From Chthoniobacter flavus (lineage in GTDB: Bacteria; Verrucomicrobiota; Verrucomicrobiia; Chthoniobacterales; JACTMZ01), in the NCBI GenBank assembly GCA_945871065.1, contig CAMBUL010000001.1, forward strand, positions 1-41,665: a stretch of DNA of 41,665 nt, given 5' to 3'. The position numbers were made by a program, and so were the translations under genes. Shown in pieces: positions 25,791 to 32,280 of the stretch. The notes below the pieces were generated by a model, which worked only from the letters and a program-made list of their open reading frames with translations, was not told the DNA's origin and ran no database searches. Numbering within the stretch: position 1 is the stretch's first letter; every line of letters begins with the position of its first letter.

Positions 25791-26252
25791 CTACCGCGAA
25801 AGGTCCGATTGCCGCAGCACGCGAAAACCCCGACCCTCGAGCACGGCGCTCGCGCATTCCAAATCGTCAGTGTGCACGGCGACGAGGGGACGTCCGCGGG
25901 GACGCACCAGCAAGGTGTAGCTGAAGAGGATGTTCACTTCGGCCTCGAGCAGGGCGGCGAGGAGACGGGGAAGGTCGGAGGCGCCTTCCTCGAGTTCGGC
26001 CACCGCAACCTCGCAGGCGCCGTAGGCGATATCGTGACGGTCAAACAATTCTTCGAGCAGTTCGGGGTCACTGACAATGATCCGCGCGATCGATGTTTCG
26101 GAGGAGTCCTGAATGCTCAAAGCGAGCACGACCACGCGCGCTTCGGAGAGCATTTTGACCACCTCGAGGAGAGCGCCGACCCGGTTTGCGAGAAAGACGG
26201 AATACTGGCGTACAGCGGGTCCCTGGAGTTTTTCGGTGGTCTCGGTGGTCAT
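25791..26252 (-). CDS. Double ACT-domain protein
   Basis: Small regulatory-type protein of 153 residues made of two ACT-like modules. The first begins QYSVFLANRVGALLEVVKMLSEARVVVLALSIQDSSETSIARIIV. The second is ACEVAVAELEEGASDLPRLLAALLEAEVNILFSYTLLV. Both follow the beta-alpha-beta-beta-alpha-beta pattern that binds amino acids at domain interfaces (COG4747-like). No catalytic domain is attached. It is 11 bases after the secreted-protein gene and looks like the last gene of the feo operon. Alternatively it has its own start signal and serves amino-acid control, for example of IlvB. I cannot choose between these from sequence. Confidence 0.82.
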   Translation of the reverse strand: MTTETTEKLQGPAVRQYSVFLANRVGALLEVVKMLSEARVVVLALSIQDSSETSIARIIVSDPELLEELFDRHDIAYGACEVAVAELEEGASDLPRLLAALLEAEVNILFSYTLLVRPRGRPLVAVHTDDLECASAVLEGRGFRVLRQSDLSR

Positions 26253-26263
26253 GGCAGGCGGTT

Positions 26264-26722
26264 CTATTTATAAAGATAAAGAAGGCAAAAATCTGAGGCC
26301 GGTCCCCCGGTGGCTTCGAGCTGGACAAAATACTGGCCCGTGGTCGCCGCTGTCACGCCAACAGCAGCGAGGCCCGGTTCTTGGTGCTCCACAACCTCCA
26401 CGGCCCGGCCGTCCGGACCGAAAAGGGTCAGCTTTGTTTTCCCTTCGGACGGCTCGACGGCCGCGCAAAACCAGTAATCATTGCCCCGGAAGAGGTTCAC
26501 CACCAGCCGTTGTGGTTTTCCCGACTCGATGCGGCCGCTCCAGACACGATCCCGCATTTTGAATCCCTCGTTGGAAAGGGCTGTGCCAAGGTCGGCCAGC
26601 CTGACACGGAGGGCTGCGGGGGCGAGCAGGGCTGCAGGAGGGGGTATATCGGGGGTCGGAGGTTGCGCGAAGGACAGGCAGGGCCAGAGAATGGTGAGAC
26701 CGATGAAGGTGGGAGTCTTCAT
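26264..26722 (-). CDS. Small secreted protein of unknown function
   Basis: Exported protein of 152 residues with a signal peptide (MKTPTFIGLTILWPCLSFAQ, cleavage after SFA). Pro-rich sequence follows, then an all-beta region at about 60-150 (RLVVNLFRGNDYWFCAAV, KTKLTLFGPDGRAVEVVEH, ATTGQYFVQLEATGGPASDFCLLYLYK). The beta region resembles a bacterial pre-peptidase C-terminal (PPC)-type sandwich in length and pattern. This is a weak resemblance. The start codon overlaps the stop of the upstream gene by 4 bases, so it belongs to the feo run. Confidence 0.72.
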   Translation of the reverse strand: MKTPTFIGLTILWPCLSFAQPPTPDIPPPAALLAPAALRVRLADLGTALSNEGFKMRDRVWSGRIESGKPQRLVVNLFRGNDYWFCAAVEPSEGKTKLTLFGPDGRAVEVVEHQEPGLAAVGVTAATTGQYFVQLEATGGPASDFCLLYLYK

Positions 26723-27684
26723 GGTTCTTTGGCCGCCATGGCGGCGATGAACTGCGTGGTGATTTCTTTGACCGCGAGAACACGCTTCTCCCCGAATTCC
26801 GCCGGTTCCATCCCCTGCATCGTTTGCTCGAGCGAGGCCAAAGCCAGATCCGTCTGGATGACCGACGCATCACTGCGTGATTTTTCCGGCAGCACTTGCA
26901 ATTCCTCGCGCAGCCAGCCGACAAGTTCGGCTTGGCGCAGGAGGCCGGCAGATTTTTCTTCTCCGCTAAGTTCGGCCGCCCGGCTGCCCACTTCGAGCGC
27001 GCGGAGCCAGGCACCTGCGGTGATGAGAGAAGCAAGGGCTTCATCGCGTTGCGCTATCATGGCTCGCCGGATATCGTTGGTGGTTGCTTCAAGTTCCTCG
27101 CGCAAGGCGAACCAATCATTTTGATTGGCAAAGTCCGCAATGCTCTTGCCGCGCACCAGAACATCCTCGCCCACTCCGAGCGCGCCGGCCAAGGCAATGA
27201 TATCTTTGCCGGTATTTTTGACCTGCTGGCCGTCCTGTGCCTCGACCGCCACGTAGCCGTCGGTGATAAGCGCGCCGAGATTGAGTGCGGTGCGCGGCCT
27301 GGTCGGATAGGTCGTCGGCACGGGCGCTCGATAGAATGACATCCAGTCCGGCTTACCTGCTTTGTCGATGGCGGAAAACAACTCCGCCGGAGTGGGCACG
27401 GTAAGCGGTGCGGTGCGCTCTGCACCCGCGCGCTGTTTCGTGGTCAGTTGCGCCGCACCCGTGCAAAGTCCGAAGGCCCCGGCAAGGAGAAAGACGGCGG
27501 GCGCCTTCACCTTCTTGCCACTAAACGGCCACCCCGGCCGGGCTGCCAGCCCGATCTTGGGGCGCCCGAGCGGACAGCTTCCACAACAATTCCCGCGTGC
27601 TCCGCGCAGGCGCAACCAAGAACAGTGGCCCAAATACAAAAGTGCACCACCCACCACCGCGACAAGGACAGATATTTCTATCAT
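26719..27684 (-). CDS. FeoB-associated Cys-rich membrane segment joined to an exported helical domain
   Basis: Open frame of 321 residues starting at ATG 27684, which overlaps the feoB stop as ATGA. Residues 1-58 look like a FeoB-associated Cys-rich protein (PF12669 type): a membrane helix (ISVLVAVVGGALLYLG), then a basic stretch and GNCCGSCPLG. With no stop, the frame runs into a second hydrophobic segment (VKAPAVFLLAGAFGLCTGAA) and a helical domain of about 240 residues (LNLGALITDGYVAVEAQDGQQ, ANQNDWFALREELEATTNDI) that I cannot name. A GTG at 27510 could start the second part alone (263 residues), but its only purine-rich sequence abuts the codon. Charges predict a hairpin: N-terminus outside, Cys loop inside, large domain outside. 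Confidence 0.7.
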   Translation of the reverse strand: MIEISVLVAVVGGALLYLGHCSWLRLRGARGNCCGSCPLGRPKIGLAARPGWPFSGKKVKAPAVFLLAGAFGLCTGAAQLTTKQRAGAERTAPLTVPTPAELFSAIDKAGKPDWMSFYRAPVPTTYPTRPRTALNLGALITDGYVAVEAQDGQQVKNTGKDIIALAGALGVGEDVLVRGKSIADFANQNDWFALREELEATTNDIRRAMIAQRDEALASLITAGAWLRALEVGSRAAELSGEEKSAGLLRQAELVGWLREELQVLPEKSRSDASVIQTDLALASLEQTMQGMEPAEFGEKRVLAVKEITTQFIAAMAAKEP

Positions 27685-29855
27685 GATGACCACTCCAACC
27701 AAAGCGTGCCGAGTTGGAAGGTCAAGACCGCACCGAGCCAGGCCAGGGCGGACATGTAGGTAAAGCCGAAAAGTGCCCAGCGCCAGCCGGCCTCTTTGGC
27801 CATGACGGCCACAGTCGCACCGCACTGCAGGCAGAGGGCGAAGAAAACCATGACGGCCAAGGCGACGGGCACGGTGAACACGGGGTGCCCGGCGCGCGGC
27901 CCGTGCGTCCAGAAATCGCGAGTCAAGGCCGAACGCAAGTCGTCGGAGCCTTCATCAGCATGGTGTCCGACTCCATAAATCGTTCCCAGCGTGGAGATGA
28001 TGACCTCGCGCGCGGGAAAACTGGCGAGCACACCCACCGTGATTTTCCAGTCGAAGCCGGCCGGATCGAAAACCGGCTGCAGAGCGCGTCCAGCCCGGGC
28101 CAAATAGCTTTGCTCGAGGTAGGCGGCATCGACGGCGCGGTCGACCGCAGAGCTGTCGTTAAGCACGGACAAGTCCGCCGTGACGCGTTCACGCACTTCG
28201 ACGGGACGCGGGAAATAAACTAGGGCCCAGATAACAATGGTCATGGCCACAATCACCGTCCCGGCGCGCACGAGAAATTCTCGCGCGCGCTCCCACATCC
28301 GCCAGAAAATGTCGCGCATGCGCGGCAGGCGATAAGGCGGCATCTCGAGAAGAAACGGTTGCGGCCGGGTGTGCAGGACGAATTTGTTAACCGCCCAAGC
28401 CACGGGGATGGCAACAGCTAGGCCGACGACATGGATGGCGAAAAGCATCCCTCCGGCCAGGCCAGCGCCGAAGGAAGGCTCGATAAATGCGCCGATCATT
28501 AGCGTGTAGACCGGTAATCGCGCCGAGCAACTCATCAGCGGGGAAACCAGAATCGTGGTCAGTCGGGCGCGCGGATCCTCGATGGTGCGCGCGGCGAGGA
28601 CGCCCGGAATAGCACACGCATAGCTCGAGAGCATGGGCACGAAACTTTTCCCGTTGAGGCCGCACCAGCCGAACATTTTATCCATTAGAAACGCGCCGCG
28701 CGCCATGTAGCCGGTATCTTCGAGAAGAGCGATGAAGAAAAAGAGGATGAGAATTTGCGGCAGAAAAATAATCACCCCGCCCACCCCGCCGACAACCCCG
28801 TCGACCACCAGGCTCTGCAAGGCGGGCCACGGGGCAAGCCACGGCGCGACCAGCTCCCCGACGCTTGCGACCACCGCCTCGATCGCTTCCATAAAGGGTC
28901 CGGCCCAGCGGTAAATCGATTGAAAAACAACAAACATCATCAGGACAAAAACCGCCAATCCCCAGACGCGATGGGTCAGCACGGTGTCGAGGCGCTCGGT
29001 CGGGGACCGTCGCCGCTTTTCCGGGAACCTGACCGCGGCGGCCGTGAGATGGCCGAGGTGCTCGTAGCGGAGAAGCGCTTCGGCCGAAAGCGGGTGCCAT
29101 CCCGCAGCGGACAGGACATCGCGAGCGGCGCCAAGCAGCGGGGCAGGGTCCGAGCCTGCGGGCCAACCGGTGCGCTCCAGCACGGCACTGCGGGGATCGA
29201 AAAGAATGCGGCGCAGTTCCCCGGGTGCGAGCAGACTCGCCCCTTCTTTTTCCAATCCGGCGGCGAGGTATTTCACCGCGCGGTCCACCGCCTCCGGCCA
29301 AGGTACCTGCACCATGAGTGCTCCGTGGTCGACCGCTTGCGCCACGGCATGTCCGAGAGCATCTACCCCCTCGCCCTTGGTCGCGACCATGCGGACGACC
29401 GGAACCCCGAGACAACGCGAGAGCAGGGCAGGGTCAATGGTGATCCCGGCCCGGTCCGCCGCATCGGCCATATTGAGCGCGATGACCATGGGCAGGCCGA
29501 GGTCGGCCACTTGCGAGGCGAGGAAAAGATTGCGCACCACATTGGATGCATCGACCACGCAGACTACGGCGTCCGGTTTTTCTTCGCCGTCGAGGTGACC
29601 GGCCAGGAAATCGAGCGCCACGCGTTCATCGGGCGAAGATGCTGCAAGGCTATAAGTGCCGGGGAGGTCGACGAGAGTGAAGGCGCGTCCGCCGCTTTCC
29701 CATGGACCGGATTTTTTTTCGACCGTGACACCCGGGTAGTTCCCGATTTTTTGGCGGGCACCGGTCAGGCGGTTGAAAAGGGTCGTTTTGCCCGTGTTCG
29801 GATTGCCGACCAGAGCGATGCGAACCCGGCGGGTTTTGTCTTTGCTCATGCTCAC
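27681..29855 (-). CDS. feoB: Ferrous iron transporter FeoB
   Basis: GTP-binding Fe(II) permease of the cytoplasmic membrane, 724 residues, normal length. The N-terminal G domain has G1 GNPNTGKTT at 17-25, G2/G3 GNYPGVTVEKK and DLPGTYSL, and G4 NMAD. A helical GDI-like spacer leads to the membrane domain with two Gate repeats (GGVIIFLPQILILFFFIALLEDTGYMAR; FPAREVIISTLGTIYG). The conserved core SYACAIPGVLAARTI is present, as is SCSARLPVYTLMIGAF with the transport Cys. Starts at 29855 and 29849 are both possible. It follows the second feoA by 9 bases and overlaps the next gene by 4. Confidence 0.97.
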   Translation of the reverse strand: MSMSKDKTRRVRIALVGNPNTGKTTLFNRLTGARQKIGNYPGVTVEKKSGPWESGGRAFTLVDLPGTYSLAASSPDERVALDFLAGHLDGEEKPDAVVCVVDASNVVRNLFLASQVADLGLPMVIALNMADAADRAGITIDPALLSRCLGVPVVRMVATKGEGVDALGHAVAQAVDHGALMVQVPWPEAVDRAVKYLAAGLEKEGASLLAPGELRRILFDPRSAVLERTGWPAGSDPAPLLGAARDVLSAAGWHPLSAEALLRYEHLGHLTAAAVRFPEKRRRSPTERLDTVLTHRVWGLAVFVLMMFVVFQSIYRWAGPFMEAIEAVVASVGELVAPWLAPWPALQSLVVDGVVGGVGGVIIFLPQILILFFFIALLEDTGYMARGAFLMDKMFGWCGLNGKSFVPMLSSYACAIPGVLAARTIEDPRARLTTILVSPLMSCSARLPVYTLMIGAFIEPSFGAGLAGGMLFAIHVVGLAVAIPVAWAVNKFVLHTRPQPFLLEMPPYRLPRMRDIFWRMWERAREFLVRAGTVIVAMTIVIWALVYFPRPVEVRERVTADLSVLNDSSAVDRAVDAAYLEQSYLARAGRALQPVFDPAGFDWKITVGVLASFPAREVIISTLGTIYGVGHHADEGSDDLRSALTRDFWTHGPRAGHPVFTVPVALAVMVFFALCLQCGATVAVMAKEAGWRWALFGFTYMSALAWLGAVLTFQLGTLWLEWSS

Positions 29856-29864
29856 ACCACCCGC

Positions 29865-30107
29865 TCAACCAAACCGTAGGACTTGCACGGCTGCCGCATC
29901 GCTTTTGCGCAGACTCAAGCGCAAGCCCCCGAACTCGATCTCGATCGGGTCGCCGAGCGGCGCCACTTGAATGACCGCCACTTCCGTGCCGGGCAACAGC
30001 CCCATGGCGAGGAGGCGTTGAAACGCTGGGTGTTCGGGGGCTCCAAATTGGACGCGGCCGCGGTCGCCGGCCCGCAAGGCAGCCAGCGGACAAATTTCCC
30101 CGCTCAT
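29865..30107 (-). CDS. feoA: FeoA domain protein (second copy)
   Basis: SH3-like accessory protein of FeoB, 80 residues. The start is ATG 30107 (MSGEICPLAALRAGDRGRV), overlapping the stop of the first FeoA gene. The track ORF is 61 codons too long. The FeoA pattern is clear: an opening with LRAGDRGRV, the helix RLLAMGLLPGTEVAVIQVAPLGDPIEI and the closing GLRLSLRKSDAAAVQV. This copy is the more canonical of the two. It is thought to bind FeoB and modulate iron transport or GTP hydrolysis. Confidence 0.92.
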   Translation of the reverse strand: MSGEICPLAALRAGDRGRVQFGAPEHPAFQRLLAMGLLPGTEVAVIQVAPLGDPIEIEFGGLRLSLRKSDAAAVQVLRFG

Positions 30108-30373
30108 TGCGCGGCGGAGGACATCCGGCGCTGGGCTTTCTGCAAGGCACAGACCTGCACGCAACCCAACATGCAACGACGCAGGGCGACACAGCTGTTT
30201 TGACAACGGACCATAACAGGGTCGCGGCCCGAAAGGACCTCGACCTCGACACCCTCCCGGAAACCGACCCGCCGGAGATGCTTGGCCCACTCACTGGTAT
30301 CATCCAATGAAACCACCTGATTGCTCACCCAGCGCGGGCTGTGCTCGAGACTGAATGTCATGGGCCGACTCAT
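30104..30373 (-). CDS. FeoA-like protein, Cys-rich first copy
   Basis: Protein of 89 residues starting at ATG 30373 (MSRPMTFSLEHSPRWVS). The FeoA-like core is HLRRVGFREGVEVEVLSGRDPVMVRCQNSCVALRRCMLGCVQV. It differs from the next FeoA in having four Cys in the second half (RCQNSCVALRRCMLGC) plus a C-terminal one, which could hold a metal. The start lies 13 bases from the Fur-like palindrome. Its stop overlaps the second feoA start by 4 bases. It may be a sensor-like variant rather than a simple duplicate. The family assignment is moderately sure. Confidence 0.8.
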   Translation of the reverse strand: MSRPMTFSLEHSPRWVSNQVVSLDDTSEWAKHLRRVGFREGVEVEVLSGRDPVMVRCQNSCVALRRCMLGCVQVCALQKAQRRMSSAAQ

Positions 30374-30546: not shown

Positions 30547-31824
30547 TTACGGCAATGGAAACCGCGAGGTGAAGGCGTGGACGCGATCTTTCAATCGCTC
30601 AAGTTCTTGGGGATTTCCCGACTGCTGCAGCGCGGCGTGAATCAAGTCGGCGATTTCCATCATTTCCTCTTCCTGCATCCCGCGGGTCGTCATGGCCGGC
30701 GTGCCGATACGGATGCCGCCGGTCTTCATGATCGGCTCGGTATCGAACGGGATGGCGTTCTTGTTCACCGTGATGCCGGCCAAATCGAGGGTCTCCTGCG
30801 CTTCCTTGCCGTTGATTCCCGCGGGCCGGAGGTCGACGAGGAGCACGTGGTTCTCCGTGCCACCGGAAACGATAGTGTATCCGAGCATGGAAAGACGCGC
30901 AGCCAGTGCTTTGGCGTTGGCCACAACTTGGGCCGCGTAGGCGCGGAAGTCCGGCTGGAGGGCTTCATGGAAGCAAATCGCCTTGGCGGCAATGACGTGC
31001 ATCAGCGGGCCGCCCTGCACCCCGGGAAAGACCTGGGCATCGATCGACTTGGCATATTGCGCCTTGCACAAAATCACACCCGAGCGCGGTCCGCGCAGGC
31101 TCTTGTGCGTCGTGCTGGTGACAAAGTCGGCATACGGCACCGGGCTGGGATGGACCCCGCCTGCCACGAGTCCCGCGATATGGGCCATGTCAACGAAGAG
31201 AAGAGCACCCACCGCGTCGGCAATTTCACGCATGCGCTTGAAATCGATGATCCGCGGGTAGGCGGACGCACCGGCGGTAATCATCTTGGGACGGCATTCC
31301 TCGGCCAATCTGGCCAGGGCATCATAATCGATCGTCCCCTTCTCGCGGCTCACTCCGTAGTGGACGATATCGTAAAGTTTGCCCGAAAAATTCGCTTTGT
31401 GCCCGTGCGTGAGGTGTCCGCCGTGGGCGAGGTCCATGGTGAGAATCCGGTCGCCGACGGACAACGCGGAAAAATAAACCGCGGTATTTGCCTGGCTGCC
31501 GCTGTGGGGTTGCACGTTGGCATGCTCGGCCCCGAAAAGTTCCTTGGCCCGTTCGATGGCCAGCGACTCGACCACGTCGACATGCTCGCAACCGCCGTAC
31601 CAACGCCGCCCCGGATAACCCTCGGCATATTTGTTGGTCAGGGCGGAACCCTGCGCTTCGCGCACTGCACGACTGGTGAAATTCTCGGAGGCAATAAGCT
31701 CGATGTTTTCGAACTGACGGCGTTCCTCGTCATGGATGGCGGCGGCGATGGCCGGGTCGGTTTCCTCGATGGCGGTAATATCCGAGGGTTCGTGGGCCGT
31801 CCGGGTTTGGGTGGCTGTGTTCAT
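30547..31824 (-). CDS. glyA: Serine hydroxymethyltransferase (internal start within a longer frame)
   Basis: PLP enzyme interconverting serine and glycine with tetrahydrofolate, 425 residues from ATG 31824 ([14 protein letters not shown]). This start has GGAGAG 9-10 bases upstream and gives the usual family length. Motifs are [69 protein letters not shown], the PLP-Lys in [12 protein letters not shown], and [10 protein letters not shown]. The frame continues upstream without a stop into a phosphatase domain, so the protein may also be made as a fusion (see the next entry). It ends 174 bases from the feo start. Confidence 0.95.
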
Positions 31825-32280
31825 GGTGTTTTTCTCTCCGGTCACTAATGGAATAACATGGGACATGGCGCGCTGGATGTCTGCTTTGCAGGACTCGTAA
31901 GTGGCGCGTGTGCCCCCGATGGGATCTGTTACGTCTGCGCGGCCGCCCTTGGCTGCCTCCTCGAAGCGCAGGAGGCGGGTTTTCGACGCCATCTCGGGAA
32001 AAAGAAGCAGCAGCATGTCAAGATGGTCCCGCGTCATGGTAAAAATGTAATCGGCCTGCTGCAGCAGGTGGGCGCTGACCGGTTGGCTGCGGATGTCCGC
32101 GATATCGATACCCTCTTTTCCCAGCACCTCGATAGCGTGCGCGCTGGGCGGCTGGCCATGGCCCGCACCGAGGCCGGCCGAGGCAACTTTGACCCGGTCG
32201 CCGGCCATGTGACGCAGAAGGCCCTCGGCCATCGGGCTGCGGCAGACATTTCCCGTGCAGATGAAAAGGACGTGCTTCAT
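30547..32280 (-). CDS. Low-molecular-weight protein phosphatase joined in frame to SHMT
   Basis: One uninterrupted frame of 577 residues. Residues 1 to about 145 are a complete LMW phosphatase: the catalytic P-loop CTGNVCRS at 8-15 and the general-acid motif DPIGGT near 119. The sequence [11 protein letters not shown] resembles the YwlE/Wzb group; YwlE removes phosphate from arginine. The key specificity residue of YwlE (Thr in CTGNTCR) is Val here, so the substrate is open. The chain then passes through about eight residues (VTGEKNTM) into full-length SHMT. In the +1 frame a TAG TGA pair sits exactly at the natural phosphatase end, so an indel or a real fusion are both possible. YwlE-like genes lie near glyA in Bacillus. 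Confidence 0.75.

Follow-up and report, generated by a model that had tools for sequence, protein, structure and literature searches.

Probable merger of a feo operon with a separate P3-P4-ACT operon in one genus of Chthoniobacterales

Do genes that stand in line behind a ferrous iron transporter belong to iron uptake? The question is raised by six genes lying head to tail on the minus strand at positions 25791-30373 of the window (the whole 41,665-nucleotide stretch analysed here, from a Chthoniobacter flavus genome of 2.53 Mb), as delimited by open reading frames and their translations (Table 1). A sequence-only reading had described them as a six-gene feo operon with a candidate Fur box and three accessory genes, for two exported proteins (called P3 and P4 here) and an ACT protein, all presented as parts of one iron-uptake system.

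Table 1. Coordinates of the features of the feo locus in the window
Feature	Position	Strand	Evidence or remark
FeoA-like protein, 89 aa	30104..30373	-	PF04023 38 bits; overlaps next gene by 4 bases
FeoA, 80 aa	29865..30107	-	PF04023 66.9 bits
FeoB ferrous iron transporter, 722 aa	27681..29849	-	TIGR00437 507 bits; FeoB_N, Gate, FeoB_C
FeoB-associated Cys-rich segment (P3 residues 1 to ~58)	27511..27684	-	joined in frame to P3
P3, exported all-helical protein	26719..27510 (whole frame 27684-26719)	-	family without Pfam entry
P4, exported beta-sandwich protein, PPC/collagen-binding-domain-like	26264..26722	-	AlphaFold2 and Foldseek
ACT-domain pair protein, 153 aa	25791..26252	-	PF19571 54.1 bits
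Candidate iron-responsive operator, palindrome TTGAGACTTAGTCTCAA	30387..30403	.	13 bases before FeoA-like start codon

Layout of the locus and its Feo half

Judged by family profiles, the first three products are with certainty FeoA, FeoA and FeoB. The FeoA domain (PF04023) was found twice above its Pfam cut-off of 23 bits, in the two proteins encoded directly upstream of feoB, and FeoB carries all three of the Pfam domains listed in the table and exceeds the NCBIfam cut-off for TIGR00437 (316 bits). The FeoA-like protein shares 68-98% identity among congeners. The genes are tightly packed, with 4-base overlaps at three junctions (FeoA-like/FeoA, FeoB/P3 and P3/P4) and gaps of 11 bases between P4 and ACT and of 9 bases between FeoA and FeoB, given the alternative GTG start of FeoB at 29855. 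Gene coordinates therefore agree with the six head-to-tail genes and junctions described from the letters alone, and profiles and layout bear out a Feo system contained in one operon-like run. From this layout the run would form a single transcription unit.

The merged order, from feoA-like to ACT, is kept in 10 of the 10 genus genomes with feoB (an eleventh genome, 65% complete, stands outside this set), and hence is not a product of chance. Because the ten congeners descend from one ancestry, their shared order is a single event that was then retained. In pairwise comparison with three congeners, dN/dS was 0.08-0.13 for FeoB, 0.08-0.12 for the exported part of P3, 0-0.02 for ACT and 0.31-0.83 for P4, where constraint is weakest; by this measure the genes of the run are under purifying selection. 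Conservation in the run is highest for the ACT pair, by a wide margin over the genes that share its operon: protein identity is 80-100% among congeners and 98-100% for the nearest three.

In the other families of the order feoA likewise precedes feoB, and P3, P4 or ACT never follow it (20 loci). A small Cys-rich ORF comes after feoB in 16 of 19 other-family loci, from which we take feoA-feoB-Cys-rich peptide to be the usual Feo layout of the order.

Also on the minus strand, positions 30547-32280 of the window hold a 577-aa frame with a low-molecular-weight protein-tyrosine-phosphatase-like N-terminus joined to serine hydroxymethyltransferase (both named by reading); eight congener loci match it unbroken over the full length, with 82-99% identity.

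P3, P4 and the ACT pair outside the genus

P3 and P4 matched no family in Pfam or NCBIfam, and a search of PDB sequences with their profiles returned chance-level matches only. The AlphaFold2 model of P3, built on an alignment of eight sequences, is all-helical with a pLDDT of 80, and Foldseek found no PDB match for it at E<=0.001; no P3 was found in the viral contigs searched. P4, modelled in the same way on eight sequences, is a beta-sandwich (pLDDT 84) that resembles PPC, collagen-binding and GOLD domains, with Foldseek E-values of 6.7e-6 to a subtilase C-terminal domain and 9.5e-4 to the ColH CBD. Weak PPC matches occur in 6 of 29 relatives. The product of the last gene matches ACT_8, the 'ACT domain pair' (PF19571), over residues 14-152, above the cut-off of 23.5 bits, as well as PDB 2F06 (E 2.6e-19), and probably senses an amino acid.

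A P3 gene is carried by 145 of the order's 147 genomes; in a phylum sample the family occurs in 32/241 genomes, all from this order or from two further families of the class. The ACT pair occurs in 175 of the 241 phylum genomes among varied neighbours, which we named by reading: metK and an aminotransferase, an argD-like aminotransferase, or phenylacetate-CoA-ligase-like genes. Long opposite-strand ORFs beside ACT in this neighbour survey were set aside as spurious high-GC antisense frames. The nearby ilvB was considered as a partner of ACT in the window and rejected, since in other families ACT keeps P3-P4 and not ilvB.

Elsewhere in the order we extracted 40 P3 loci from other genomes; P3, P4 and ACT usually stand together in them, and the ~6 kb examined on either side of P3 contained no feo gene. 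Of 36 other-family loci in which P3 was scored, 31 have P3 and P4 overlapping by 4 bases and 33 a junction within -20 to 60 bases; the P4-ACT gap measures 0-50 bases in 25 of 25 other-family loci. Going by this arrangement, P3-P4-ACT forms a conserved operon in its own right. Adjacency gave the same picture: feoB adjoins P3 in 0 of 64 non-genus genomes in which both were located, versus 10 of 10 in the genus. The two genes are on different contigs in 61 of the 64, and are ~8 kb (G034), ~16 kb (G089) and ~838 kb (G049) apart in the remaining three, in a comparison that took the best P3 match per genome only, with contig lists compiled by hand. Because assemblies are often in short contigs, we draw the absence of linkage from the flanked loci and the contig test together. 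Beyond the genus, then, the accessory families lie mostly away from feoB, the very outcome that the sequence-only reading had named as speaking against it, and the proposal that the two exported proteins and the ACT protein are iron-uptake parts did not hold up.

Paralogous copies of P3 have neighbourhoods of their own. A P3-P4 pair stands before phoH (named by reading) in the own genome, on contig C21 (L037:5974-8381), where P3b and P4b keep the same order and a phoH-like gene follows; further families of the class also have the trio (L116, L207, L208, L217). In some genomes a third P3 copy is divergent from a glycosyltransferase and an L,D-transpeptidase-like gene, again named by reading, an arrangement shared by P3 relatives at L212 in class family f15 and at L220 and L225 in other families. 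The f15 relatives (L211-L215) lack a P4 match. Such neighbours suggest a cell-wall context, and P3 and P4 probably act in the cell envelope. Taken as a whole, the P3, P4 and ACT neighbourhoods would point to envelope and amino-acid roles, not to iron. P3-P4-ACT, together with the paralogous P3-P4 before phoH, is a widespread module in Chthoniobacterales, and the locus illustrates how an operon-based guess of function can mislead: a trio that looks like Feo in one genome is a separate conserved module.

The Cys-rich peptide and its in-frame fusion to P3

The Cys-rich segment consists of one hydrophobic stretch plus CCGSC. Six congeners have a separate Cys-rich ORF of 49-60 aa after feoB; in these same six P3 begins independently, with a signal peptide of its own, either beyond a stop or in a different frame. 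Peptide and P3 make up a single reading frame in four species, represented by the window and three further loci (L009, L010 and L011). The separate ORFs of the six congeners match PF12669 with E-values of 3.6e-5 to 1.9e-3, their scores being below the curated 27-bit cut-off. The same profile found no match in the window's own segment, and the motif Cx3-5Cx2-3Cx6-8C (PMC8749426) is absent there, CCGSC being accompanied by one earlier Cys; for this reason we call the segment PF12669-like and not a member. The comparison with congeners supports the correspondence of P3 residues 1 to ~58 to the FeoB-associated Cys-rich peptide, a true Feo accessory element. By the positive-inside rule the Cys segment of the fusion would face the cytoplasm and the P3 domain the periplasm. 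By its reading frame the window's P3 is a junction product, and an in-frame GTG at 27510, where L010 has ATG, is a possible start of P3 alone.

Both parts of the fusion are under purifying selection. This, the order kept throughout the genus and the four species in which a Feo-type peptide is joined in frame to P3 are what one would expect of a seven-part Feo system, in which the fused Cys-rich/P3 protein docks to FeoB, its helical domain in the periplasm, together with P4, captures Fe2+ or passes it on, and the ACT protein ties uptake to the supply of amino acids. We nevertheless find such a system quite improbable: throughout the order P3, P4 and ACT occur without adjoining feo, P3 paralogues go with phoH or lie beside the glycosyltransferase and L,D-transpeptidase-like genes, and the invariant residues of P3 (E, W, R, A, G and D) include no Cys or His. 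Moreover, families f5 and f9 have P3, and their listed members show no feoB match at E<=1e-60. In a version confined to the genus, the fusion would form a hairpin in the membrane, its Cys loop meeting FeoB on the cytoplasmic side and its other domain lying in the periplasm, and P3-P4-ACT would thereby have been recruited as new working parts of ferrous iron import; to this we give very little credence.

A candidate iron operator and the case for a merger

The palindrome that precedes the run is perfect, with an 8-1-8 arrangement. At this position before the first feoA, TTGAGACTNAGTCTCAA is kept in 10 of 10 congeners while the flanks have diverged; one congener has one core change and another an outer-base change, and, counted from the aligned FeoA start, the congener palindromes begin 16-34 bases upstream. 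The own genome has no other match to the 15-base core at <=2 mismatches. Outside the genus we searched for the exact core in 388 phylum genomes and for the exact 17-base form in 335 class genomes. Nine of the ten single-copy exact sites adjoin TonB-dependent receptors (G291, G396, G409 and G455 by Pfam, G641 by reading), a feo operon (G683, by reading), AraC regulators (in G382 by Pfam and in G626 by reading) or a PF07396 porin (G382); the last one, in G490, has no obvious iron gene near. A further exact core in a congener (G001:C109) is near a gene that probably encodes an exported protein and has no clear connection with iron. G556 has six exact copies of TTGAGACTNAGTCTCAA (L251, L257-L261), mostly near contig ends and with unrelated genes adjoining, which are probably a repeat that breaks the assembly and were set aside from the single-copy count. 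Of 19 feo operons from other families, 13 carry a related sequence, TGAGA-N5-TCTCA.

These data make the palindrome a well-supported candidate iron operator, on which a Fur-type repressor most likely acts. It has the Fur 7-1-7 geometry and shares 5 of 7 half-site positions with TGATAAT, and the canonical Fur box GATAATGATAATCATTATC found no match at up to 3 mismatches. What had been called a candidate Fur box is most likely this palindrome, kept in ten congeners and found next to iron-uptake genes elsewhere, and not the canonical box. The own genome encodes three Fur-family proteins and also two DtxR-type regulators, so a DtxR-type protein may be the regulator instead. Two DtxR-type C-terminal domains lie within 2.7 kb on contig C28 of the own genome (L266-L267), one of them in a 538-aa open frame. 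We found no described Fur site for Verrucomicrobiota in the literature searched, and nothing useful on the TTGAGACTTAGTCTCAA palindrome, on feo in Chthoniobacterales or on the ACT pair. For this phylum the conserved palindrome is a concrete candidate iron operator that can be tested directly.

The six genes might be mere neighbours, with P3-P4-ACT keeping its own promoter and escaping iron regulation: outside the genus, 37 regions upstream of P3 yielded neither the palindrome nor TGAGA-N5-TCTCA, against a background of 0.002 per 300 bases even when one mismatch is allowed, and in other families the triad stands alone. In the window, however, the P3 frame overlaps feoB, leaving no intergenic space, and no promoter-like site was found at the feoB/P3 junction, although this is a weak test. 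A promoter inside the run, ahead of P3, could make the two units independent of each other, yet we regard the mere-neighbour reading as unlikely.

We consider it probable that the locus is made of two ancestral operons that merged, the second being probably transcribed from the Feo iron-regulated promoter as a passenger. The first operon (feoA, feoA, feoB and the Cys-rich peptide) would import Fe2+ through FeoB, a GTPase-linked transporter regulated by the FeoA proteins, and with sufficient iron a Fur-type repressor would most likely shut it through the palindrome. The second, a separate and older module, would provide two translationally coupled exported proteins, probably of the envelope, and a cytoplasmic ACT-pair protein. 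In the window's genus the second operon would have come to lie directly behind the first, and therefore would probably have become a passenger on its promoter; in four species the Cys-rich peptide would afterwards have fused in frame with P3. Selection for the link could explain why the order has been retained over wide divergence and why four species keep a fusion free of stops. Since the joining of the two operons is limited to one small group, P3, P4 and ACT are probably not general parts of iron transport.

The first half of the locus compares well with the Feo operons that carry a PF12669 protein (PMC8749426), in its FeoA proteins, in a FeoB with all expected domains and in a small Cys-rich membrane peptide immediately 3' of feoB. 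In that account the Cys-rich protein is separate or a C-terminal domain of FeoB, mainly in Firmicutes and Bacteroidetes, and the main text does not mention Verrucomicrobia; here, unlike there, the peptide's frame continues into that of an exported protein encoded downstream, and in the window three non-Feo genes come after. In its model P4 shares a comparable beta-sandwich with PPC and collagenase collagen-binding domains, but it is a small exported protein standing alone, and the window's P4 has no Pfam PPC match. The ACT protein agrees with ACT_8 (PF19571; PDB 2F06) in a nearly full-length, above-cut-off profile match and a tandem ACT layout, and differs in context: it belongs to a P3-P4 operon, while phenylacetate-CoA-ligase-like genes flank ACT_8 in two distant phylum members. 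Finally, the palindrome resembles Fur boxes (the E. coli consensus and the delta-proteobacterial WTGAAAATNATTTTCAW, PMC545781) in its 7-1-7 symmetry, its TGA...TCA ends and its sites upstream of feo, TonB-dependent receptors and a PF07396-family porin, but its half-site is TGAGACT and not TGATAAT or TGAAAAT. A porin weakly similar to PF07396 was predicted in the Fur regulon of that study, whose delta-proteobacterial Fur sites are a precedent for divergent boxes upstream of feoAB.
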